Shown one piece after another: positions 11,376 to 61,219 of a DNA stretch of 64,000 nucleotides (its first letter is position 1; each line of letters starts with the position of its first letter). Made by a program: the position numbers and the translations under genes. The stretch lies in the NCBI RefSeq assembly GCF_900090295.1, contig NZ_LT607753.1, forward strand, positions 5,146,001 to 5,210,000. Direction: 5' to 3'. Below the pieces are notes generated by a model, which made no database searches, had not been told where the DNA came from, and was given only the letters and a program-made list of their open reading frames with translations. Origin of the DNA: Micromonospora coxensis. GTDB lineage: Bacteria; Actinomycetota; Actinomycetes; Mycobacteriales; Micromonosporaceae.

Positions 11376-12128
11376 ATGGGTACCGCTCCGATCACCGCCC
11401 GGTCCGACGGGGCCGTCGACGACCTGCACCTGGCCACCCGCAACGCCGCCGCGCTCTGGACCGCGCTCGCCGAGGCCCGGGGACACGCCCTGAGCCGGCT
11501 GCCCGGTCTGCTCGCCGTCCACGGTGACGACCGCGCCGGCCTGCGGGTCCTGCTGCTGACCTCCGCGCCGTCGGCATCCGACGTGGCGGCGCTGACCGAC
11601 CTGGTACGGCGGCGGCTGCCGGGCCGGGTCGTCGTCGAGGACCCGTTCGGCGGCGTGGACCTCACCGGGGCCGGCCTCACCCGACGATCCCTGCCGATCA
11701 TGATCCGCCGGCCGGCGCCGGTCCCGCCGCCCGCCCTGGAGGTCACGCTCGCCACGACCCCGGCGCAGCTCGCCGTCGCCGAGGGCCTGGTGGTGCACGG
11801 CTTCCCGCTGGAGCCGTGGCAGCCGCACCGGCCGGGCGAGGCGTTCCCGCCCGCGCTGCTCGACCGGCCACGGGTCCGCTTCCTGGTCGCCCACCGGGGC
11901 GGGACGCCGGCCGGCGCCTGCCTGACCGTGGCCGACGACGGCGCCGGGGTCTACTGGATGACCACGCTGCCCGCGCACCGTTCCCGGGGCGTCGGCCGGG
12001 CGCTGCTGCACGCGGCGCTGACGCACCTCGGCGACCGGCCGGTGACGCTGACCGCCGCCCGGGCCGGCCGGCCGCTCTACGACTCGCTCGGGTTCGTCCC
12101 CGTCACCGACGCCATCTGGTGGAGCTGA
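11376..12128 (+). CDS. GNAT-family N-acetyltransferase
   Basis: 250 residues. The N-terminal 120 residues are a variable domain. The C-terminal half is a GNAT fold, with VRFLVAHRGGTPAGACLTVAD, GVYWMTTLPAHRSRGVGRALL (acetyl-CoA pyrophosphate loop R-x2-G-x-G/A, about residues 190-210) and the terminal ARAGRPLYDSLGFVPV typical of strand 7. The substrate cannot be told. ATG start, probably leaderless. It is followed by a tandem-repeat region rather than a cotranscribed gene. Confidence 0.78.
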   Translation: MGTAPITARSDGAVDDLHLATRNAAALWTALAEARGHALSRLPGLLAVHGDDRAGLRVLLLTSAPSASDVAALTDLVRRRLPGRVVVEDPFGGVDLTGAGLTRRSLPIMIRRPAPVPPPALEVTLATTPAQLAVAEGLVVHGFPLEPWQPHRPGEAFPPALLDRPRVRFLVAHRGGTPAGACLTVADDGAGVYWMTTLPAHRSRGVGRALLHAALTHLGDRPVTLTAARAGRPLYDSLGFVPVTDAIWWS

Positions 12129-48059: not shown

Positions 48060-49352
48060 GTGACCGAGCAACTCGCCTCCCCACCGCCCGCGGCGCGCGT
48101 GCCGTTGTGGCGGCACCGGGACTTCGCCCTCTTCTGGGGCGGCCAGACGGCCGGTGAACTCGGCATCCGCGTCAGCGGGGTGGCGCTGCCACTGATCGCC
48201 GCCGACACCCTCGGCGCCGGTGTCCTCCAGGTCTCCCTGCTGACTTCCCTGGCCTGGCTGCCGTACCTGCTCCTCTCGCTGCCCGCGGGGCTGCTCGTCG
48301 ACCGGGTAAATCCGCGGCGGCTGATGGTCGGGTGCGACCTGGGGCGGGCCGCGCTGATGCTCGCGGTGCCGGTGGCCGCCCTGCTCGGCCACCTCACCCT
48401 GCCCCTCCTGTACGCCGTGGTCGGGCTATCCGGGGCGCTGACCGTGCTGTTCACCGTGGCGTACAAGACCGTCCTGCCGCGCCTGGTGGCGCCGGAGCAG
48501 CTGGTGGCGGGCAACGCCCGGCTCTCCGTCAGCCAGGACGCCGCCCAGCTCGTGGGACCGACCGTCGGCGGGGCGCTGACCGGGCTGGTCGGCGGGGCCC
48601 GGACCGTCGTCGGCACCGCGCTCACCTTCGTGGTCAGCGCGGTGACGCTGCTGCTCGTCCGGCTGCCGGCGCAGGCGGAGCCCGCCGCGTCGGCGCGCGT
48701 CCCGGCGCGGGCCGCGCTGACCGAGGGGCTGGGATTCGTCCGGCGGCACCCGATCCTGCTGCGGATCCTGGCCTGCGTCACCACGTCCAACTTCTTCGCC
48801 GTCGCCACGCAGTCGCTGGAGGTCGTCTACCTCGTCCGCGAGCTGGACGCCTCCCCGGCGGTGGTCGGTGCGGTGTTCTCCCTCGGCGCGGTCGGGGGAC
48901 TGGTCACCGGCGCGCTCGCCGACCGGATCTCCCGCCGGATCGGCTCGGCCCGGGTGATCTGGGTGGCGATGGCCGTACCCGGTCCGCTCTACCTGCTCGT
49001 CCCGCTGGCCCGGCCTGGCTGGGGGCTGCTGCTCTACGCCGTCGGCCTCGCCGCGTTCTCCGCCAACGCGGTGCTGTTCAACATCGCCATCCTGTCGTAC
49101 CGGCAGCGGGTGACCCCGCCGGAGCTGCTCGGCCGGGTCACCGCCGCGTTTCTGTGGATCTGCTTCGGGGCGGTCCCGCTGGGCGCGCTGTTCGGCGGCA
49201 CGCTGGGCAGCGGGTGGGGGCTGCGGCCGGCGCTGGTGGTCTGCGCGCTGGGGACGTGGAGCGCCGCGCTCTGGGTGGTGTGCTCTCCACTGCGGAGGAT
49301 GCGCGACCTCCCGATCGATGACCAGGCAGGGACGAGAAGCTGGGAGCGGTGA
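48060..49352 (+). CDS. MFS exporter (EntS/macrolide-efflux type)
   Basis: 430 residues with about 12 spans. RHRDFALFWGGQTAGELG at the start, the LPAGLLVDRVNPRRLMVGCDLGRA motif after span 2 (cited in outline) and QDAAQLVGPTVGGAL in span 5 mark the MFS_3/EntS type, which includes siderophore and drug exporters. GTG 48060 has GGCAGG about 8 bp upstream and is chosen over GTG 48051. No siderophore genes are nearby, so the substrate is open. Confidence 0.83.
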   Translation: MTEQLASPPPAARVPLWRHRDFALFWGGQTAGELGIRVSGVALPLIAADTLGAGVLQVSLLTSLAWLPYLLLSLPAGLLVDRVNPRRLMVGCDLGRAALMLAVPVAALLGHLTLPLLYAVVGLSGALTVLFTVAYKTVLPRLVAPEQLVAGNARLSVSQDAAQLVGPTVGGALTGLVGGARTVVGTALTFVVSAVTLLLVRLPAQAEPAASARVPARAALTEGLGFVRRHPILLRILACVTTSNFFAVATQSLEVVYLVRELDASPAVVGAVFSLGAVGGLVTGALADRISRRIGSARVIWVAMAVPGPLYLLVPLARPGWGLLLYAVGLAAFSANAVLFNIAILSYRQRVTPPELLGRVTAAFLWICFGAVPLGALFGGTLGSGWGLRPALVVCALGTWSAALWVVCSPLRRMRDLPIDDQAGTRSWER

Positions 49353-49488
49353 CCTACCGCAATACACGACGCGCGTTTGTCCGGATCGATGCCTGTACGT
49401 GCTGACAGTTTGTACACGAGCCTTTACGCAGCGACCTGTCGATCTCTACAGTTCCCTGGCTGTCCATGGACGAACACGGGGGACCGTC

Positions 49489-52400
49489 ATGACTGTGTCG
49501 TGGAGACGTCATGCCTTCATCTGGCTGACGTCGATCAGTGCTGTCGTCTCCGGCACCGGATTCGTGGCCGAGGTGCCCGCCGCCAGTGCCGCCCCAGGAC
49601 CGTCCGAGCAGGCTGCCTGCGTCACCGAGGCGCCGGACGAGGCGGCGGCGGCCAGGCTTGCCGCGCGGTGCGGCCGTGCCGTCGAGGTGCTCAGCGAGCG
49701 CACCGAGTACGCGCAGGTCACCGTCGGCCCGGACGGTGTCCGGAAGTTGGTGGCCTCCGTCGCACCGCAGCGGGTACGCCGCGCCAACGGCACGTGGGCT
49801 GCCATCGATCCGAGCCTGCGGCCCAAGGACGGCAGGCTGGTCCCCGCCGCGTCCCTCGCCGACGTGTCGTTCTCCACGGGCGGCACCGGGCCACTGGTCA
49901 CCTGGCGGGAAGCCGGCTCCAGCTTCACCCTCGAATGGCCGCTGGGTCCGCTGCCGGCGCCCCGGGTGGACGGCGCCACCGCGGTGTACCCGTCCGTCCT
50001 CAAGGACGTCAACCTGCACGTGACCGCGACTGCTGAGGGCTATACCCACGTGGTGGAGGTGCTCACCCCGGAGGCGGCGGCGCAGCCGGCGATCCGCGCG
50101 CTCCGCTTCCGCACCGGTGGGGACATGAAGGTCACCCGGGACGCGACCGGAACCGTGCGGCTCGCCACTGCCGGCGGCGTGCCGGTGGCCAACTCCGCGC
50201 CGGCCAGGATGTGGGACTCGTCCACGGACCCGTCCCGGGCCGGCGAGGTGCTGGCCTCGGCAGAGGCACGCGGCCTCGCCGTCCCGGCCGGCGAGCGGGC
50301 CACTGCCGAGGAGGCGGCGGTCACCTCCCGCAGCGCCCGCGTCGGTGTGGCGCTCTCCGGAGCGGAGCTCACCATCACGCCCGATGCGAAGTTGATGGCC
50401 GATCCCGGCCTCACATACCCGATCTTCATCGACCCGGAGTTCGAGAAGCAGCGGTCGAAGTGGGCGTACGCGACCAGCAACGGGGAGAACAACGACACCA
50501 CTGTGGCCCGGGTCGGGCGGCAGCCGTACCCCGAGGGTGGGAACGGGGAGCGGTACCACTCCTTCTACGACTTCCCGATCAGTGGGCTCAAGGGCAAGCA
50601 GATCCTCGGCAGCACGGTGCGGATCACCCTCGACCACTCGTGGTCCTGCACGCCGACCTGGGTCCACGCGTACCGGACGAGCGCCATCACGGTGGCCAGT
50701 GGCGGCCGGATGGGCTGGACCACTCGCCCACTGCCGTCGAACCACCTGGACGCATGGGAGGGCAGCGCCAACGAGGCGGGCGGCTGCGGCAGTGTCCAAC
50801 CCGACGTCGATGCCGAGTTCGCCAGCGAGGCGTTCCGCAACGACCTTCAGTACGCGGTCAACAAGGCGTGGCCCACCTACACCGTTGGCCTGTGTGCCTG
50901 CAACGACGCCGGGGAGGGGGAGGACCTCGAGAGCCGATGGAAGAAGTTCTACACCGACAAGGCGTGGATCGAGGTCACGTACAACTCGAAGCCGAGCGTG
51001 CCGACCAAACTCACCACGTCCGACCAGGCGTGCGGGGCGACGATCGGCACCGCGTCCCCGGTGTTCGAGGCCTTCTACGGGGACGCGGACGGCACCGGGG
51101 ACAGCCTGACCGGCTACTTCGAGTACATGTTCATCGGTTACAGCGGCGTCGGTACCAAGACCGGGCAGACCAAGCCGGGCAACAGCTTCGGCGACTCCGG
51201 CATCGTCAGTCTGGGGAGCCTGGCCGAGGGCAGAACCTACCAGTGGCGGGTCCAGACCCGGGACAAGGCCGGCTCCTACTCCGACTGGTCCGGTTGGTGC
51301 AGCTTCACCGTCGACCTGGACAAGCCGCTGCCGCCGGCCGTCAGCTCCACCGACTACCCGGCCGACGGAGTCGCCCACGGCGGCCCAGGTATCGCGGGTA
51401 CGTTCACCTTCGCCCCCAGGTCCACGGACGTGGCCAAGCACGTCTACGGATGGAGCGGTCAGGCCGGTCCCCTCACCACCATCGTCGCGGGTTCCCGGAA
51501 TACGGTGACGTTGACGCCGCCGCGGTTCGGATTCAACGTGCTCGAGGTCTACAGCATCGACGGCGCCAACAAGCAGAGTGACACCACCCGCTACAAGTTC
51601 CTGGTCGAGGCGCCGTCTGCGCCGATCGCCCACTGGCCGCTCGACAGGGTCGACTCCCATGACCTCAAGGAGGCGTCCGGCGGGCCCAGCCTCACTGTGA
51701 ACGGCACCGAGGCATGGGCCGAGAACAGCCGGATCTACGGTGACGCCACGCCCTCCTTCAACCTGGACACTCATCTGGCCGCGAACGTGCCGTTGGACAC
51801 GGCGAAGTCTTTCGGTGTAGCGGTGTGGGTCAATCTCGGTGATGCCACCCGTGAAGACCCCGAGCCGGTTCTGTCGCCGGGAAACTGGACGGCCGTGAGC
51901 AAGTTCGGCACGAAGGTGAGTGGGTTCTATCTCGGCTACCGTCTGTCCAACGGGCCCCGATGGAGCTTCATGATGCCGGGGGCTGACGCCGCAAGCAGCG
52001 TCAATACTTTTGTCGCGGTGGAGTCACCGATCACCTTGACCACAAAGGACGTGGGCAAGTGGGCACATCTCGCCGCCTCCTATGATGCGGCGACCCGCGA
52101 AATGGTCCTCTACGTGAACGGGAAGCGCGTCGCCTCCGGCGTCCGTCCAGCCGCCGGTTGGAATGCCGGCGGTCCGGTGGTCATCAGTGGGGCACAGTGG
52201 TCGGAGAACCCGACGGATCCGACTCAGATCGCGGACCACTGGCTCGGTCATATCACCGACGTCCGACTCTGGAACCGGGCGCTCACCCAGGACGACCTGA
52301 CCGGCACCGACGTGAACCCGGAAATGGGGACCGAGGCGGTTCCCGGCATCATCCAGCCGATCCAGGTGGCGAACTGGGACTTCAGCGGTGGGCTCGATTC

Positions 52401-53091
52401 CGCCTGCGGCTCGGCGGCGAGTTACGACTACTGGGGGCGCTCCCTCGACCTCTACGGCTGCACCGATCCCTACTCGGAGAGCCAGACCGTCGGGTACACC
52501 GGTGACGGCTACGACGACAGTGAGGCGCTGTGGTTCAACACTGCCCAGCCGGATGGCTGGGGCGGCACGTCGACCAGAACCGGGTACGCCGCCACCACCG
52601 ATCCGGTGGTCAACACCGGGCAGTCGTTGACGGTCTCCGCCGCCGTCCGCGTCCGTGAACTCAACGGACAGGAGCAGGTCTTCGTCCGACAAGGCGCAGG
52701 CAACGCCCAGGAGGGGGCCGTCAAGCTGTACATGGAACAGAACGGCAACCTGAGGTTCGCGGTGCTCACCCCTGACGGTGCGGGTGGCGTGAGTTGGGCG
52801 GCGGCCGTGTCGGACAGCCCCGTGACCGCAGCTACCGTTCAGGCGAAGGAATGGGTCCACCTCACCGGTGTATTCGACGTCGGAACAGGCGAGGTGCGCC
52901 TGTACGTCGACGGTCGACCCCAAGCCGCTCGAGGCGTCGGCGCCGTCGGCAAGGCATCGTCTCACCCACTGTTCGTCGGAAGCGTCTCCGGCGTGAACAG
53001 CTTCCTCCTGGGCGACATCGACCAGATCAAGGTCTACGCCGGCGCGATGAACGATCGCGAAGCGGCGGCCCTCTACCGCGATTCTCGGTGA
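49489..53091 (+). CDS. Secreted LamG-like (concanavalin-fold) giant protein
   Basis: 1200 residues. A signal peptide ends near residue 35 (PAASAA). About 50-310 form a domain usual in actinobacterial partners of RHS proteins (RVRRANGTWAAIDPSLRP, GLTYPIFIDPEF). About 330-510 form a DNRLRE-like beta domain (SKWAYATSNGENNDTTVARVG). Fibronectin-like segments span about 510-720. Two LamG-like domains follow at about 720-930 (HWPLDRVDSHDL ... MVLYVNGKRVASG ... DVRLWNRALTQDDL) and 960-1200 (VRLYVDGRPQAARG ... IDQIKVYAGAMNDREAAALY). It precedes the RHS toxin gene in the same orientation, so it is probably secreted with or bound to it. Its true role is unknown. Confidence 0.82.
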   Translation: MTVSWRRHAFIWLTSISAVVSGTGFVAEVPAASAAPGPSEQAACVTEAPDEAAAARLAARCGRAVEVLSERTEYAQVTVGPDGVRKLVASVAPQRVRRANGTWAAIDPSLRPKDGRLVPAASLADVSFSTGGTGPLVTWREAGSSFTLEWPLGPLPAPRVDGATAVYPSVLKDVNLHVTATAEGYTHVVEVLTPEAAAQPAIRALRFRTGGDMKVTRDATGTVRLATAGGVPVANSAPARMWDSSTDPSRAGEVLASAEARGLAVPAGERATAEEAAVTSRSARVGVALSGAELTITPDAKLMADPGLTYPIFIDPEFEKQRSKWAYATSNGENNDTTVARVGRQPYPEGGNGERYHSFYDFPISGLKGKQILGSTVRITLDHSWSCTPTWVHAYRTSAITVASGGRMGWTTRPLPSNHLDAWEGSANEAGGCGSVQPDVDAEFASEAFRNDLQYAVNKAWPTYTVGLCACNDAGEGEDLESRWKKFYTDKAWIEVTYNSKPSVPTKLTTSDQACGATIGTASPVFEAFYGDADGTGDSLTGYFEYMFIGYSGVGTKTGQTKPGNSFGDSGIVSLGSLAEGRTYQWRVQTRDKAGSYSDWSGWCSFTVDLDKPLPPAVSSTDYPADGVAHGGPGIAGTFTFAPRSTDVAKHVYGWSGQAGPLTTIVAGSRNTVTLTPPRFGFNVLEVYSIDGANKQSDTTRYKFLVEAPSAPIAHWPLDRVDSHDLKEASGGPSLTVNGTEAWAENSRIYGDATPSFNLDTHLAANVPLDTAKSFGVAVWVNLGDATREDPEPVLSPGNWTAVSKFGTKVSGFYLGYRLSNGPRWSFMMPGADAASSVNTFVAVESPITLTTKDVGKWAHLAASYDAATREMVLYVNGKRVASGVRPAAGWNAGGPVVISGAQWSENPTDPTQIADHWLGHITDVRLWNRALTQDDLTGTDVNPEMGTEAVPGIIQPIQVANWDFSGGLDSACGSAASYDYWGRSLDLYGCTDPYSESQTVGYTGDGYDDSEALWFNTAQPDGWGGTSTRTGYAATTDPVVNTGQSLTVSAAVRVRELNGQEQVFVRQGAGNAQEGAVKLYMEQNGNLRFAVLTPDGAGGVSWAAAVSDSPVTAATVQAKEWVHLTGVFDVGTGEVRLYVDGRPQAARGVGAVGKASSHPLFVGSVSGVNSFLLGDIDQIKVYAGAMNDREAAALYRDSR

Positions 53092-53182: not shown

Positions 53183-56100
53183 ATGTCCGTAGGTATGCCG
53201 CCGGTCTCTCCGACCCGGCACGATCCGCGATCCCGATTCTGGCTCCCCGGCAGCCGCCTGCGACTCGGCCTGTCAGCCGCGTTGACACCTGTCGTACTGG
53301 CGTCCCTGCTGGCCGCCACGCCGCAACCGGCCAAGGCCGCCGACCCGACCCACCTGACGCTCAGCCAACCGAAGGCCGTGACGACCAAGGACGTGCTGGC
53401 GAAGCCCCGACCGGCTGACATGTCGCAGGGCGCGGACAGCGTCACCGCCACGACGCTGAGTTGGCCCGCCGCCGGCACGGCGGAGGCGTCCGTCCCGGCG
53501 GAGATCGCGCGGAGGGCGGCCGCCGCCAAGGCGCCCGCGACGAGCACCAGGGTCGGCAAGCTTCCCGTGTGGGTCGGTCCAGCGGACGGTGCCGGAGCTC
53601 GGGTTGCCGCCTCCACCGCTCCCGTGGGGCGAGCCAAGGTCGAGGTGCTCGACCGGGCGAAGGTGGCACCGGGTTGGCGCAACGGGCTCGTCCTCCGAGT
53701 CGCACGCGCCGATGGTGTGGCGCGCGGTGGGCGGATGAGTGTCGGTGTCGGCTACGCGGGCTTCGAGTCGGCGTTCGGTGCGGACTGGTCGACCCGTCTG
53801 CGCCTGGTCGCGCTGCCGGAGTGCGCGCTCACCACGCCGGACCTGCCCCAGTGCAGCGGCCGTCCGCTGCCCTCGCACAACGATCCTGCCTCGAAGCGGG
53901 TCTCGGCGGAGATCGACGTACAGCCCGGTGCCACCGGTGCCAAGGCGCTGTCGGCGGGCGGAGCCACGCTGGTCGCCCTCACGGCCGCCCCCTCCGGCTC
54001 GGCCGGCGACTACTCCGCGACCCCACTCCAGGCGTCCTCCAGCTGGACCGCGGGCGGATCGAGCGGTGACTTCTCCTGGTCGTATCCCATCCGGGTTCCC
54101 CAGGCCACCGGGCCGGCGCCGAAGGTGAGCCTCGCCTACTCGTCGAGTGCCGTCGACGGACGCAGCGACGCCTCGAACAACCAGCCCTCGTGGGTCGGCG
54201 AAGGCTTCGAATACCACCCGGGTTTCATCGAGCGGCGGTACGTGCCGTGCTTCGACGACACCGCGAACGGCGCGACCAACAACGACCAGATCGGTGACCA
54301 GTGCTGGGGCACCGACAACGCCGTCCTGTCGCTCAACGGCCGTTCGACCGAGTTGGTCAAGGACGGGACCACCGGTGAGTGGCGGCCGAAGAGCGACGAC
54401 GCGTCCAAGGTCGAGAAGCTGACCGGCGGCTCGAACGGCGACGACAACGGTGAGTACTGGAAGGTCACCACCGCCGACGGCACCCAGTACTTCTTCGGCC
54501 GCGACGACCTGCCGGGGCAGACCAGCGACACGGCCTCCACCGACACCGTCCGGGTCTACGGCAACCACCAGGACGAGCCCTGCTACAACGCCTCCTTCGC
54601 CTCGGCCCACTGCAACCAGGCGTGGCGGTGGAACCTCGACTACGTCGTCGACACCCACGGCGGCACGATGTCGTTCTGGTACAGCCAGGAGACCAACAAG
54701 TACGCGGCCAACGTCACCGACAGCAACGAGGTTTCCTACGTCCGGGCGTCGAACCTGACCCGGATCGACTACGGCACCTGGGACCGGGGGGACACCGACC
54801 GGTCCGTGACCCCGACGGCACAGGTATTCTTCACCACCTCGGACCGGTGCAAGTCGGACTGCGCCACGCACGACGAGGCCCACTGGCCCGACACGCCGTG
54901 GGACCAGGAGTGCACCGGCACGACCTGCGAGGGCAAGTACTCACCGACCTTCTGGTCGACGCGCCGGCTCACGGCGATCACGACGAAGGTCGCCGGAGTC
55001 GCCGGTGACGTGGAGAGGTGGAGCCTCGACCACAACTTCCCCAAGAACGGCGACGGTTCGCGGGACGGCATGTGGCTGGAGTCGATCCGGCACACCGGCT
55101 ACATCGGCGAGAGGGTGGACCTGCCGGAGGTCAACTTCGACTGGGTGCAGCGCCCCAACCGGGTCGACAAGACCGACGACGGCAAGCCTCCGATGCACTG
55201 GATGCGGCTGAACACGATCTGGACCGAGACCGGCGGAAGGATCGTGGTCGAGTACTCCGACCCGGAATGCGACACCGACGGGCCGATGCCGGCCTCTCCG
55301 GAGACCAACACCCTCCGCTGCTACCCGGTGCTGACGGAGAACCCCTTCACCAAGGCCATCGAGACCGACTACTTCCACAAGTACGTGGTGAAGCAGGTCT
55401 TCGAGTCCGACTGGACCGGTGGCGGGACCGACGTCATCACCGCCTACGAGTACCTCGACGGCGCCGCCTGGCACCACGCCGACGACGACGGCATGACCAA
55501 GGACAAGTTCCGCACCTGGTCGGACTACCGGGGCTACGGTCGAATCAGGGTCCGGAAGGGCACCGACGGTCAGGAAACCCTGTCCGAGACCCGCTACTAC
55601 CGCGGCATGCACGGCGACAAGGCCGCGCCCAGCGGGGGCACCCGTACCGTCACCCTGCGCGGGGTGGACCTGAACGGGGACGGTGACGTGGTCGACGTGG
55701 CCGACGCCGGCCAGGTCAACGACCACGACGCGCTGGCCGGGCAGGTGCGGGAGCAGATCACCTACAACGGTGTCGACACCGACATCGTGTCGCGCTCCGT
55801 CAACCAGGGCTGGCAGTCGCCGCACACCGCGATGCGGGACATGGGGACCACCACCACGTACGCCCGCTACACCGGCGTGGACACGTCCTGGAACGCGGTG
55901 AAGCTGGACGCCGGTCGCGGATGGCGGGTCGTCAAGAGTTCCAGCACCTTCGACTCGTACGGCATGGAGACCACCTCCACCGGCCTGGGTGACGTCGCGG
56001 CCGGCGGTGACGAGAAGTGCATCCGCACCACCTACGCCCGCAACACCGGGCTGAACATCCTGTCCACGGCAGTGCGGGTGGAGACCTTCGCCCTGCCGTG

Positions 56101-59100
56101 CGGCACAGCGCCGAAGACCACAGATGACGTCATCAGCGACGTGCGGACCTCGTACGACGGTGAGGCGTACGGCGTCGCGCCCACGGAGGGCGACCCCACC
56201 AGGGTGGAGACCCTGAAGGGGTGGTCGGAGTCCGGGGGCACCGACTGGCTGACGACCGGGACGACTGTCTACGACGACCACGGCCGGGTCGTCGAGTCCA
56301 CCGACGTCCGTAACAACAAGACCATCACGACGTACACCCCGACGGTGGGCGGTCCGGTCACGAAGGTGGAGACCACCAACCACCTGAGTTGGAAATCGAC
56401 CCAGGAGATGGACCCGGCCTGGGGGCTGCCGAAGCGCACGGTCGATGCCAACGGCAAGATCACCGATCTGCGGTACGACGGCCTCGGCCGGCTGCGGAAG
56501 GTGTGGCTGCCGAACCGCTCGATCGGGCTGGATCCCGCCAACCCGACGAGCACCCCCTCCACCGAGTACACGTACACGCTGCGCCACAGCGGCGGCGTCA
56601 ACGCGGTCACGACGCGGTCCTTGAGCGCCGAGGGCAGCTACCTCACCAGCTACGCGCTCTACGACGGGTTGCTCCGACCCCGGCAGACCCAGGTGTCGGC
56701 AGCGTCCGGCGGCGGAACCGTGTTCAGCGAGTCGGTGTACGACGCCGCCGGGCGGGTCGCCTACGCCAACGCCAGTCACCGTGACCCCAACGTCGCGCCC
56801 GGCACGACACTCAGGTCGATCGCGGCGTGGGAAGCGAACATCCAGACGGTCAACCACTACGACCGGACTGGCCGGGTGACCGCGAGCATCCAGACCACCA
56901 GCGGCCAGGAGAAGTGGCGAACCACCACGGCCTACGGCGGTGACCGGGTGTACGTCACCCCGCCGGAGGGCGGCACCGCGACCACCTCGATCAGCGACGC
57001 CCGCGGCAACACCGTGGAGGTCCGTCAGCACGCCGGCCGCACCATCACCGGCCCCTACGACGCCAGCACGTACACCTACAACCGCAAGAACCAGTTGACC
57101 TCCGTCAAGGATCCTGCCGGTAACCAGTGGTCCTACGAGTACGACATCCGGGGCCGGCAGCGGATTGCCGTCGATCCCGACAAGGGCAGCACGGAGTCCA
57201 AGTACGCCGACAACGGTGACCTCGAATTCACGGTGGACGGTCGCCAGCAGAAGCTGGTCTACCACTACGACAGCCTGGGCCGTAAGGACGCGGTCTACCA
57301 GGGGTCGATTGCTACGGCGAACCTACGGGCCAGTTGGACGTACGACCCGACGGGCGCGAAGGGGATGCCCGCCTCCAGCAGCCGGTGGACCGACAACGGC
57401 ACCACCGAGTACAAGGTGCGGGTCCGGGGCTACAGCCCGCTCTACCGGTCCTTGGGCGAGGACTTCGTCATTCCGGCCACCGAGACAGGGCTGAGCGGCA
57501 CCTACAGCTTCACCCGGAGCTACAAGGCCGACGGCGTCTCGCTCGGCTCCGCGACGTACCCGAGCACCGGCGGTCTCGGCGCCGAGCAGCTCACCTTCAC
57601 CTACGACTCGACGACCGGCCTGGCGGAGCAGGTCAAGACCAACTGGCCCAACGCAGGGCAGTACGTCACCGACACCAGCTACAACGCGTTCGGTCAGGTC
57701 GGTCTGGTCCAGTACCAGCAGACGGCACAGAACTTCCTCGAGCGCGCCTGGAACTACGAGGACACCACGGGCCGGCTGGCGAATGCCGTGACGAGCCGGC
57801 AGATCGCCCCGCAGATGGTGGCAGACGTCAACTACACGTACGACCCCGCCGGCAACATCCTCCGAATCGCGGACACTCCGGCGGGCGGCACCGTCGACGT
57901 ACAGTGCTTCGGCCACGACTACGCCAGGCGTCTCACCCAGGCATGGACGCCGACGTCGGGGAACTGCGGCCCGGCGCCGACGGTGACGGACCTCGGTGGC
58001 CCGGCACCCTACTGGCACTCCTGGGCCTTCGAGCCGGTCGGCAAGTCGTCCGGTAACCGGGTCACGGAGACCAAGCACGGCACGGCGAACACCGAATCCA
58101 CCTACAAGTACCCGAACCTCGGCAGCGCCCAGCCGCACGGCGTCCAGCAGGTGATCACCACCGGAAACGGCGCGGGCACCCGCAACTACCAGTACGACGC
58201 CGCGGGCAACATGACGTGCCGTCCGACGGCGACCGCGGTGAACAACACCTGCCCCGGCGGCACAGGCAGCCAGACCCTGACCTGGGACAGCGAGAACAAG
58301 CTCGTCGGCCTCACCGACGGCGGCAAGACCCACTCCTACCTGTACGACCCCGAGGGCAACCGCCTCATCGCGCGGGATCCCACCGGCAAGACGCTGTACC
58401 TGCCCGGAATGGAGATCCGGTACACGAGCAACGGCGGCTCCAAGGCGGCGACCCGGTACTACAGCCACCTCGGCCAGTTGATCGGCATGCGGATGCCGGG
58501 GACCGGGATCACCTGGCTGGTCACCGACCACCAGGGCACCCAGGAACTGAGCATCGCCTCCGGCAACCAGGCGATCACCCAGCGGCGGCAGACCCCGTAC
58601 GGCGGCTCCCGCAGCACGCCCCCGCCGGCCTGGCCCAACCAGCTCGGCTTCGTCGGCGGCACGATCGACGGCGGTGCCGACGTCACGGGCCTGACCAACA
58701 TCGGTGCCCGGCCGTACGACTCCGCGATCGGCAAGTTCATCGCGGTCGACCCGATCATGGACATGGCCGACCCGGAGCAGTGGAACGGCTACGCGTACGC
58801 GGGCAACTCCCCGATCACGAGCAGCGATCCGACCGGGTTGATCGAGGAAGACTGCGCGATCCACGACTGCGACTATCGCCCAGGGGATGAAGAGGGAAAC
58901 AAAGACGCCAAGAAGAACAACAGTTGTTGGCCGGCGTCCTGCGGCGGAAACGGCGAGGAGAGCTCCGACGACCCTAGAACCTGGACGGGCAAGCACAAGG
59001 ACGACGGCCGCCCGATGCCGGGCCCCGGCCATCTGACCCTTGAGCAGGATGCGCAGTTCCGATACTACACTCACACGACGAATCTCGATATTTTTCAGCG

Positions 59101-60088
59101 CGAGGTCGTCGAGGACGAGGTTTTCTGTTACAACAACTCGGAAGTGTGCGCTGCCCTAGCGAAGGCCAAGGTCAAGCAGTCACGCAAGGCCCTTTTGGAT
59201 CTGCTCGGGGTCACCGATTTTCAGGAGTGCACGAAGGGCAAGGCAACGGGATGTATCTGGACGGCCGTTGGCCTGATTCCCGCTGGCAAACTAGTAGGAC
59301 CGGTTGGGAAATCCCTCCTTCGGAAGGGTATTAAGACCGCGTGTAGCTTCAGCGGTGACACCGAGGTCCTGATGGCTGACGGCAGTACCACGCCAATGAG
59401 TCAGATTAATGCGGGTGACGAGGTGTTAGCCACCGACCCCGCGACTGGTGAATCAGGGCGCCGGAAGGTTACAAAGCTGTGGGTGCACGAGGACCAACTC
59501 TACGTGCTGGAAACCGAAAGTGGCGAGGTGGCCACCACGGAGGATCATCCGTTCTGGAATGAGTCCGACCTGGCCTGGCAGGGTGCTGAGACCCTCGATC
59601 CTGGCGACTTGCTGCGTACGCCCACCGGCGTGACCGCCGTCATCTCCTTCGATATTGAAGCTGCCACGGTTGCTGCGGCATACAACCTCACCGTCGATGA
59701 CCTCCACACGTACTATGTGATGGTCGGAAACACGCCGGTTCTGGTACACAATGCTAACGATTGCTCGATCTCCGGCTCTGCCGGTGGGCAGAAGTTGGCT
59801 GACCAACTCCGTGCGGCATCGGCGAAGTCGATGTTCACGCCGGGTGGAGGCCTTACGCGCCAAGCTATTGATGAATCCCAACTGATTATTCGTGGCAGTG
59901 ACCTGGGCAACCAGCAGTTGCGGGCTCACCTGACCCGCGATGGCAGCGATATTGCGGACTGGGGTAAATACACGACGAGGACGCATCAGAGCTCCTACGG
60001 GGACTTTCAGGTCCATTACTACTATAATTCGAGAACTGGAAATGTTGCCTACGACTACGACTACAAAGTTGTGATGAACGCGAGGTAG
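53183..60088 (+). CDS. RHS/YD-repeat polymorphic toxin with Hint domain and C-terminal toxin tip
   Basis: 2301 residues. Signal peptide (about 20-52). N-terminal beta region, with VSLAYSSSAVDGRSDASNN and GEGFEYHPGFIERRY (about 315-355). Many YD repeats follow (about 950-1830, e.g. YDGLGRLRKV, YDSLGRKDAV, YEYDIRGRQR). The RHS core ends at GARPYDSAIGKFIAVDP...DPTGL (about 1840-1886). The Hint domain runs from Cys2054 (CSFSGDTEVLMADGS) through TTEDHPFW to VLVHN2190, a self-cleavage module. The 111-residue tip (2191-2301: DIADWGKYTT, FQVHYYYN, VAYDYDYK) is of a type I cannot name. ATG 53183 has GGAGG 6 bp upstream. From about 59040 the base composition becomes visibly A/T-richer, indicating an exchanged tip. 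Confidence 0.88.
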   Translation: MSVGMPPVSPTRHDPRSRFWLPGSRLRLGLSAALTPVVLASLLAATPQPAKAADPTHLTLSQPKAVTTKDVLAKPRPADMSQGADSVTATTLSWPAAGTAEASVPAEIARRAAAAKAPATSTRVGKLPVWVGPADGAGARVAASTAPVGRAKVEVLDRAKVAPGWRNGLVLRVARADGVARGGRMSVGVGYAGFESAFGADWSTRLRLVALPECALTTPDLPQCSGRPLPSHNDPASKRVSAEIDVQPGATGAKALSAGGATLVALTAAPSGSAGDYSATPLQASSSWTAGGSSGDFSWSYPIRVPQATGPAPKVSLAYSSSAVDGRSDASNNQPSWVGEGFEYHPGFIERRYVPCFDDTANGATNNDQIGDQCWGTDNAVLSLNGRSTELVKDGTTGEWRPKSDDASKVEKLTGGSNGDDNGEYWKVTTADGTQYFFGRDDLPGQTSDTASTDTVRVYGNHQDEPCYNASFASAHCNQAWRWNLDYVVDTHGGTMSFWYSQETNKYAANVTDSNEVSYVRASNLTRIDYGTWDRGDTDRSVTPTAQVFFTTSDRCKSDCATHDEAHWPDTPWDQECTGTTCEGKYSPTFWSTRRLTAITTKVAGVAGDVERWSLDHNFPKNGDGSRDGMWLESIRHTGYIGERVDLPEVNFDWVQRPNRVDKTDDGKPPMHWMRLNTIWTETGGRIVVEYSDPECDTDGPMPASPETNTLRCYPVLTENPFTKAIETDYFHKYVVKQVFESDWTGGGTDVITAYEYLDGAAWHHADDDGMTKDKFRTWSDYRGYGRIRVRKGTDGQETLSETRYYRGMHGDKAAPSGGTRTVTLRGVDLNGDGDVVDVADAGQVNDHDALAGQVREQITYNGVDTDIVSRSVNQGWQSPHTAMRDMGTTTTYARYTGVDTSWNAVKLDAGRGWRVVKSSSTFDSYGMETTSTGLGDVAAGGDEKCIRTTYARNTGLNILSTAVRVETFALPCGTAPKTTDDVISDVRTSYDGEAYGVAPTEGDPTRVETLKGWSESGGTDWLTTGTTVYDDHGRVVESTDVRNNKTITTYTPTVGGPVTKVETTNHLSWKSTQEMDPAWGLPKRTVDANGKITDLRYDGLGRLRKVWLPNRSIGLDPANPTSTPSTEYTYTLRHSGGVNAVTTRSLSAEGSYLTSYALYDGLLRPRQTQVSAASGGGTVFSESVYDAAGRVAYANASHRDPNVAPGTTLRSIAAWEANIQTVNHYDRTGRVTASIQTTSGQEKWRTTTAYGGDRVYVTPPEGGTATTSISDARGNTVEVRQHAGRTITGPYDASTYTYNRKNQLTSVKDPAGNQWSYEYDIRGRQRIAVDPDKGSTESKYADNGDLEFTVDGRQQKLVYHYDSLGRKDAVYQGSIATANLRASWTYDPTGAKGMPASSSRWTDNGTTEYKVRVRGYSPLYRSLGEDFVIPATETGLSGTYSFTRSYKADGVSLGSATYPSTGGLGAEQLTFTYDSTTGLAEQVKTNWPNAGQYVTDTSYNAFGQVGLVQYQQTAQNFLERAWNYEDTTGRLANAVTSRQIAPQMVADVNYTYDPAGNILRIADTPAGGTVDVQCFGHDYARRLTQAWTPTSGNCGPAPTVTDLGGPAPYWHSWAFEPVGKSSGNRVTETKHGTANTESTYKYPNLGSAQPHGVQQVITTGNGAGTRNYQYDAAGNMTCRPTATAVNNTCPGGTGSQTLTWDSENKLVGLTDGGKTHSYLYDPEGNRLIARDPTGKTLYLPGMEIRYTSNGGSKAATRYYSHLGQLIGMRMPGTGITWLVTDHQGTQELSIASGNQAITQRRQTPYGGSRSTPPPAWPNQLGFVGGTIDGGADVTGLTNIGARPYDSAIGKFIAVDPIMDMADPEQWNGYAYAGNSPITSSDPTGLIEEDCAIHDCDYRPGDEEGNKDAKKNNSCWPASCGGNGEESSDDPRTWTGKHKDDGRPMPGPGHLTLEQDAQFRYYTHTTNLDIFQREVVEDEVFCYNNSEVCAALAKAKVKQSRKALLDLLGVTDFQECTKGKATGCIWTAVGLIPAGKLVGPVGKSLLRKGIKTACSFSGDTEVLMADGSTTPMSQINAGDEVLATDPATGESGRRKVTKLWVHEDQLYVLETESGEVATTEDHPFWNESDLAWQGAETLDPGDLLRTPTGVTAVISFDIEAATVAAAYNLTVDDLHTYYVMVGNTPVLVHNANDCSISGSAGGQKLADQLRAASAKSMFTPGGGLTRQAIDESQLIIRGSDLGNQQLRAHLTRDGSDIADWGKYTTRTHQSSYGDFQVHYYYNSRTGNVAYDYDYKVVMNAR

Positions 60089-60090
60089 GG

Positions 60091-60456
60091 ATGAGAGTGA
60101 AGTATGCGGCCCGATGGCTGGAGGGTGTGTCCCGGCAAGGGGTTGCAGCTCTTTCCGAGGGGCGTGAGTATGTGGTCCTTGAGATCTCGTCGCTTGCCGA
60201 TCGGCCCTCTTACTTTCGAATTGAGGCTGTTAGTGGTGAGCCGCCGGCGCTATTCGATGTACGCCTCTTTAAAATTGCCTCGCCAATAATTCCCCCAAAC
60301 TGGACGGGCTCGCTTGACGATTCCGGGCTGCTGACGATCGGGCCAAAAGCGTGGAGAGAGCGCGACTTTTGGGAGGCATATCTAGGGCGACAGGAGTGGG
60401 CGGTTGCTGCATACGAGAGGGAGCTCAAGGTGATACTGTCGGCCGGAATGGAATGA
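60091..60456 (+). CDS. Probable immunity protein of the RHS toxin
   Basis: 121 residues with its ATG only 2 bp after the toxin stop, no signal peptide, and A/T-rich codon use matching the toxin tip rather than the genome. Segments such as VRLFKIASPIIPPNWTGSLD, LTIGPKAWRERDFWEAYLG and AAYERELK resemble a widespread class of small proteins encoded next to polymorphic toxins (IP-NW ... GP-W ... FWE-Y pattern); this is recollection, not a search result. It is expected to stay in the cytoplasm and neutralise the tip. Confidence 0.65.
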   Translation: MRVKYAARWLEGVSRQGVAALSEGREYVVLEISSLADRPSYFRIEAVSGEPPALFDVRLFKIASPIIPPNWTGSLDDSGLLTIGPKAWRERDFWEAYLGRQEWAVAAYERELKVILSAGME

Positions 60457-61219
60457 GGTCGTGAGGATCGGTCGCTTGGTCGCATCTGGCGTAACACTTC
60501 CTGCGCTGCCTGAGCGGTCTTGGTTACCGAGGTGGCCGTGAGGCCTGCGGTTGGTAGTCGTTATCTCGGCTACCGTCACGATCTCCGCCGGAGATCGATA
60601 ATGCGTGGTAATCGCTGTGTCTCTCTGTCTCGCAATCGTGGCGGGCAAGTTAGCTGCGCGACAACTGACACCGACTCTCATTGCGCTAAAATATCGGCAT
60701 TGTCAGGCGTTGTGGGCGGTGGCGAATATGCCGATGCCTGAGGCGGGAGCCCCTACTCGGAATTCTGTTGCGGGCTACGGAGACGACATCAATGCGGGCG
60801 TAGTCGGGAGCACCATGATCGCGGCCACTCTGGCGCCTGCTTGCCCTTAAGGGAAGTGGGTGGCGCAGTGATAGAGGTAATGGGCGACCGAATAGGACAC
60901 GAGGTCGGTTTGCGGTGCGATGTGCTCGACGTAGGGAGACGGTTGGTTGGATGATCCGGCCCTACTTTCACGGGTGAGTACAGGTGTAGCTGCTGCCGCT
61001 GGACAGCGGCGGCGAGCTGGTCTCTGGTTTTCGTACGCCGTTGGTCGACGTCGGCCCTCGCTTGGCTGTACTCCTCAGAGAGCGTTCTGCTCTGAGGCTT
61101 GGCCGGTACGCCGCCACGATTCTCGGTGGTCATGGCGTCTTCCATAAGACCTGATACACCCCGTACGGTGTCCGACGGACAACCGGCGGGCGCGCTCGCC
61201 GACGATCGCGGAGGTTCCC
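60457..61219. other. 763-bp low-GC debris after the toxin-immunity pair
   Basis: Base composition stays lower than the genome to about 61100. Short plus-strand frames (60520-60741, 60605-60850) have no family features or good start signals. A minus-strand fragment (60848-61133) looks like a decayed gene. No terminal repeats or transposase are seen. The region resembles the graveyard of older toxin tips and immunity genes often found behind such loci. Confidence 0.5.
60848..61133 (-). pseudogene. Possible frameshifted small gene
   Basis: From ATG 61133 a frame reads about 57 plausible residues (TTENRGGVPAKPQS, SEEYSQARADVDQRR, KTRDQLAAAVQRQQ), a helical Gln/Arg/Ala-rich start. After about 60965 the frame becomes Ser/Thr/Pro-rich and unlikely. 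Another frame then gives a coherent ending, SPYVEHIAPQTDLVSYSVAH and so on, to a stop at 60848. This suggests one gene broken by a frameshift. No family is recognised; it could also be two chance frames. Confidence 0.3.

Follow-up and report, generated by a model that had tools for sequence, protein, structure and literature searches.

The window analysed here is a stretch of 64,000 nucleotides from Micromonospora coxensis (contig NZ_LT607753.1, positions 5,146,001 to 5,210,000), whose genome is a single contig of 6.77 Mb. Towards its 3' end lies a gene for a large RHS polymorphic toxin, which closes in a Hint domain and a C-terminal tip of 111 residues and is followed directly by a small gene, and it is the tip and this partner gene that concern us. 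The features are as follows, in window coordinates:

53183..60088, plus strand: RHS polymorphic toxin of 2301 amino acids (open reading frame from ATG at 53183 to TAG at 60088; library domains)
53183..53338, plus strand: probable Sec signal peptide, residues 1-52, with an AKA/A site (suggested by a hydrophobic run)
58592..58840, plus strand: RHS core domain TIGR03696, residues 1804-1886 (NCBIfam match)
58880..60456, plus strand: cassette of low GC content at third codon positions (GC3), comprising linker, Hint, tip and partner (in-frame GC3; left edge approximate)
59342..59752, plus strand: Hint domain (PT-HINT), Cys2054-Asn2190, with predicted self-cleavage after Asn2190 (Pfam, sequence)
59705..59752, plus strand: Hint tail HTYYVMVGNTPVLVHN, 16 codons, a possible recombination anchor; matching codons form the start of two orphan cassettes of relatives (sequence comparison)
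59753..60085, plus strand: C-terminal toxin tip of 111 amino acids, residues 2191-2301, of a family without a library name (searches, conservation)
60091..60456, plus strand: predicted immunity protein of 121 amino acids (open reading frame, similarity, linkage)

The RHS gene and its low-GC3 end

The body of the protein contains RHS repeats (PF05593, E 5.1e-13) and the RHS core (TIGR03696, E 1.3e-14), both exceeding their cutoffs, and is followed by PT-HINT (PF07591, residues 2065-2191, E 2.2e-16, 60.8 bits against a cutoff of 27.7). The Hint domain has Cys2054 as its first residue and ends in VLVHN/A, that is, Asn2190 and then Ala; His-Asn followed by Ala at the end of a Hint domain fits cleavage and not splicing. 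The partner frame has its ATG at 60091, two bases past the stop of the RHS gene, with a GAGG placed 5 bases upstream of that ATG, inside the end of the toxin gene. Thus the layout proposed in an earlier, sequence-only reading of this DNA, namely a 2301-residue RHS protein with these Hint boundaries and a 111-residue tip, and a 121-residue gene 2 bp behind it, was borne out. At the other end of the protein, a hydrophobic stretch (residues 30-44) and the AKA/A site make the N-terminus look like a Sec signal, and the protein is probably secreted. An SpvB/Tc-type toxin body was considered for the protein and rejected, PF03534 reaching 19.4 bits, under its cutoff of 22.

The in-frame GC3 is 0.918 in the body, 0.680 in the linker, 0.701 in the Hint domain, 0.649 in the tip and 0.603 in the partner, and the minimum of the RHS body over windows of 111 codons is 0.793. 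The same earlier reading had given the tip and the partner a lower-GC codon use than the body; this holds for both, but the low stretch is wider than it had stated, beginning soon past the RHS core (at about 58880) rather than at the tip, and taking in the linker and the Hint domain as well. Predicted structural models have a predicted local distance difference test score (pLDDT) of 86.7 for the tip and 91.7 for the partner.

Tip exchange and linkage of the tip to its partner

The closest RHS bodies in the genus, those of the relatives G185 and G355, bear unrelated tips. G185 keeps the full architecture (upstream LamG gene 82%, RHS body 88.5%, linker and Hint 76.5% identity), and the DNA alignment of its RHS gene (L070) with the window covers 58863-59751, ending within the codon for Asn2190. 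Protein identity per 50 residues (L040) runs at 82-92% over residues 1401-1850 and at 56-86% over 1851-2200, and then falls to 22% and 8%. Two further relatives share the other side of this junction: G061 matches the window over 59681-60594 and a Salinispora over 59704-60530, both spanning the Hint tail, tip and partner at 81% DNA identity. Upstream of the shared unit the Hint domain of G061 is only 44% identical, and in Salinispora there is the Hint tail alone. The two matches therefore define the shared unit as running from the Hint tail to some 75-140 bp past the partner stop. We conclude that the tip is a mobile module swapped at the Hint/tip junction, which is resolved to a base or two. 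The replacement tip of G185 (L070 1279-1596, minus strand) itself gives a weak match to Ntox35 (E 0.0085, below cutoff). A comparison of the remnants 3' of the partner (60457-61219) with the collected open frames returned only the window's own copies among the matches listed, a result that speaks for the families listed there.

We used a partner profile, made from the window partner and eight sequences collected solely by similarity to it, to search the open frames of 28 distinct tip loci (the window, L002-L026, L028 and L029). In 27 of these a same-strand partner match abuts or overlaps the tip frame, and the sole locus without one, L024, has its tip in broken pieces. Since the match in the window holds by construction, the figure for the remaining loci is 26 of 27. 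The sequence-only reading had offered linkage of tip and small gene in related genomes as a test of its proposal, and linkage is what we found, on a Campylobacter plasmid as well as in these loci. The partner is the less conserved of the two in all 210 pairs compared, the mean pairwise identity being 52% among tips and 33% among partners. Five genomes of the family (L033-L037) lack a tip but have diverged genes that resemble the partner, at least one with internal stops; these are perhaps orphan immunity genes, some of them decayed-looking.

The tip residues K72, H88, Y90, D103 and K105 are invariant in 36 chosen sequences, T75 and N92 are also conserved, and D69 is near-invariant. The conservation count retained 141 of 156 distinct rows (those of 70 letters or more); one choice of alignment rows left out the broken tips L022, L024 and L026 and another left out L010 and L024, the genome-survey loci being omitted from both. 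In Streptomyces sp. AW19M42 (L010 6001-6330) the tip has Thr in place of K72, a residue that is nearly invariant elsewhere, and may be a naturally inactive copy. Two successive tip-like matches, at least partly decayed, lie on a Cellulomonas contig (L022, 3905-5011 and 5944-6186) and likewise in an actinomycete metagenome-assembled genome (MAG; L024, 1894-2082 and 2357-2542).

Upstream of the RHS gene there is one further feature:

49318..53091, plus strand: LamG-domain open reading frame, 5' of the RHS gene and kept upstream in two relatives examined (Pfam, comparison)

Its counterpart precedes the same RHS body in both G185 (82%) and G355 (68%), and its product is a possible surface or delivery partner of the RHS protein.

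Library searches, distribution and orphan cassettes

Neither singly nor in sets (22 tips, 23 partners) did the tip and the partner match anything in Pfam, NCBIfam or the PDB sequences significantly. The set of 22 tips gave no such match against PADLOC and PHROGs, ten further tip relatives gave none in Pfam, and a 36-member tip set gave no match above cutoff naming a toxin family in NCBIfam and PDB. One of the 36 does match an intein C-terminal model in NCBIfam (E 2.5e-6), presumably through Hint sequence remaining on that member. Ntox14 (PF15522) was rejected as a candidate, being reached by one of the 22 tips at E 0.073, which is not significant. That the tip could not be assigned to a named toxin family, as first stated from the letters of the DNA, is in agreement with these results, and the profile search then suggested as a check produced no match to any non-toxic domain either. 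We found no description of the tip family in the literature searched, a body of text that is not searchable by sequence in full and that has preprints and most subscription papers outside its scope. For the libraries and literature searched, the conclusion that the family is unnamed and undescribed is supported.

Precomputed Pfam domains show PT-HINT in 2 of the 21 long proteins that contain the tip (the window protein and that of Micromonospora sp. NBC_00362). A Plantactinospora RHS protein has the tip without PT-HINT, and many of the Streptomyces tip proteins bear the source name putative T7SS-secreted protein (T7SS, type VII secretion system). Among named relatives, Micromonospora sp. KC207 has a tip at 93% and Micromonospora sp. 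NBC_00362 one at 78%. A scan of genome contigs yielded 24 tip loci, with Salinispora, Streptomyces, Kribbella, Cellulomonas, Paraburkholderia, Pararobbsia and Herbaspirillum as named genera, together with MAGs labelled Chloroflexi, Gemmatimonadetes, Propionibacteriaceae, Actinomycetota and Proteobacteria. Short proteins searched with a profile yielded 136 matches, of which 120 are listed; Moraxella, Acinetobacter and Cupriavidus are among the matches listed, and six of the 120 carry the name filamentous hemagglutinin. Relatives of the tip thus span Actinomycetota, Chloroflexi, Gemmatimonadetes, Pseudomonadota and Campylobacterota, on carriers that are RHS proteins or are named for T7SS or hemagglutinin. 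On the Campylobacter concisus plasmid the tip gene overlaps a partner-like gene by 4 bp, and the two lie some 0.7 kb 3' of a filamentous hemagglutinin gene, with one gene in between; in this stretch of 8 proteins the tip profile scores E 6.9e-28 and the partner profiles 1.6e-7 (nine-member) and 6e-14 (23-member). Within the window's own family the tip is present in 3 of 300 genomes, with the partner adjoining in all three, and the partner in 8 of 300; an RHS core is present in 102 of 151 genomes of the genus.

A scan of viral contigs gave 29 pattern stretches and no relatives, a phage search gave no match at E 0.01, and a plasmid search with the Moraxella protein gave no match at 1e-4. Against a viral structure library, Foldseek ranks first for the tip a 'putative hemagglutinin' from the giant virus Indivirus ILV1 (E 5.3e-3, probability 1.00, TMq 0.51), though with a root-mean-square deviation of 13.3; a giant virus may have a domain related to the tip.

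Tip-partner pairs also stand apart from any RHS body. In G061 (L069) the Hint-tip-partner unit has its frame open from 8984 and its partner running to 10377, with no RHS body for it found within 14 kb, and at 11816 there begins another tip-like frame, unlike the first (cassette L069 11810-12130). In Salinispora (L003 5944-6333) a tip-partner pair begins 3.1 kb past the end of an RHS gene, which carries a different tip of its own. The later of the two G061 orphans and the one in Salinispora begin alike: two codons past an in-frame stop come the 16 Hint codons HTYYVxAGxTPVLVHN. From these two cases, it is possible that the orphans are silent spare tips for which the Hint tail would serve as a recombination anchor. 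A DNA search at E 0.01 found no second Hint tail in the window's own genome.

Interpretation and comparison with known systems

Very probably, the tip and the 121-residue protein form a polymorphic-toxin effector-immunity pair whose family has no name in the libraries checked. This reading, already advanced from sequence, is supported by the exchange of tips, the linkage and the spread over carriers, and we infer from the genetics that the predicted tip would be toxic and the predicted partner would neutralise it. In such a scheme, the RHS protein would be secreted carrying the toxin tip, and the Hint domain would release the tip by cleavage after Asn2190. The partner, probably made from the same message as the toxin, would protect the producing cell and its kin by binding the tip, and the freed tip may cut tRNA or other RNA of competing bacteria, perhaps by means of K72, T75, H88, Y90 and D103/K105.

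The evidence for this interpretation has limits. Many tip loci are close Streptomyces relatives, and the number of independent loci is smaller than the count. In favour of the pair, the RHS loci of the genus that bear other tips (L039-L067) gave no partner match in any of 29, even at E 1, but this control is limited by short flanks, the sequence reaching 250 bp or more past the RHS stop in 16 of the 29; true pairs cut to 250 bp past the stop were found in 20 of 23 cases and those cut to 150 bp in 12 of 23. Also in its favour, the pairwise identities of tips and partners across 21 loci correlate with r 0.879, a value that none of 2000 permutations reached, though such a correlation would also arise from shared ancestry alone. 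As regards chemistry, the conserved D69 and D103 stand beside the Lys/His/Thr-type set of K72, T75, H88, Y90, N92 and K105. It is highly improbable that the tip serves the RHS protein as a structural or adhesive end and has an unrelated gene as its neighbour, given the exchange at the end of the Hint domain, the linkage, the orphan tip-partner cassettes and the unrelated carriers.

Taking the effector-immunity pair as the preferred reading, we give about an even chance to the tip being a small metal-independent ribonuclease, perhaps BECR-like. The same pair could have as its tip a metal-dependent PD-(D/E)XK nuclease acting on DNA or tRNA, a class that is the second main one among toxins of known structure in contact-dependent growth inhibition (CDI), according to PMC9086364, and that would suit the invariant D103-x-K105 and near-invariant D69. 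We regard this as quite unlikely, because the model (going by secondary structure) ends with the strand that holds the conserved D-x-K, an arrangement that does not resemble the usual core of a PD-(D/E)XK domain, K72, H88 and Y90 fall outside the motif, and no such chain is among the matches listed in the weak PDB fold search. A non-nuclease enzyme in the same pair (NAD-consuming, ADP-ribosylating or another modifier, for example), or a new fold and chemistry, is a minority possibility that we take seriously: the PDB fold search was without a convincing match and the strongly conserved polar residues could support other chemistry, but Pfam and NCBIfam gave no match to a named family of NADases or deaminases, and ribonuclease tips are usually small alpha+beta domains with this kind of Lys/His/Tyr/Thr conservation.

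What is most interesting here is the generality across carriers and phyla together with the sharpness of the exchange point. The window presents a sharply delimited, testable candidate toxin-antidote pair of a family that is unnamed in the searched libraries yet sits on several carriers in five phyla, and the exchange of its tip, located so closely, suggests a simple anchor. It would add one more family to the catalogue of antibacterial toxins and poses the question of substrate, that is, which RNA is cut, if any. More speculatively, and rather unlikely to hold as a whole, the tips may represent an unrecognised toxin superfamily whose fold and active site (W-x-K-x2-T ... Q-x-H-x-Y-x-N ... D-x-K) differ from both BECR and PD-(D/E)XK, and which five phyla or more would have in common on carriers of RHS, T7SS and CDI type. 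Actinobacterial genomes would then keep silent cassettes of tip and immunity gene with the final 16 codons of the Hint domain at their start, and one recombination in this tail would replace the tip in frame, precisely at the Hint cleavage site.

Among known systems, CdiA-CT of Klebsiella pneumoniae 342 (6cp9) and RelE (1wmi), both of the BECR fold, show a weak fold likeness to the tip and similar kinds of active-site residue; the similarity of the tip model extends over 69 residues of the former and 64 of the latter, and is not a convincing match. The active site of the BECR tRNase CdiA-CT Kp342 is listed as K, Y, H, R and T in PMC9086364. A relative of the tip, P0147, is a protein of Acinetobacter sp. 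V91_7, and for the CDI systems of Acinetobacter De Gregorio et al. 2019 (PMC6336857) list many C-terminal regions with an unknown toxin domain. Set against the RHS/Hint polymorphic toxins of Zhang et al. 2012 (PMC3482391), the window tip and partner differ in matching no Pfam model; the 2012 tables were compared by their motif descriptions. In that paper, tip diversity is described as arising by recombination with standalone cassettes, and the systems share with the one described here an RHS body, the PT-HINT domain, a variable C-terminal tip and an adjacent immunity gene.
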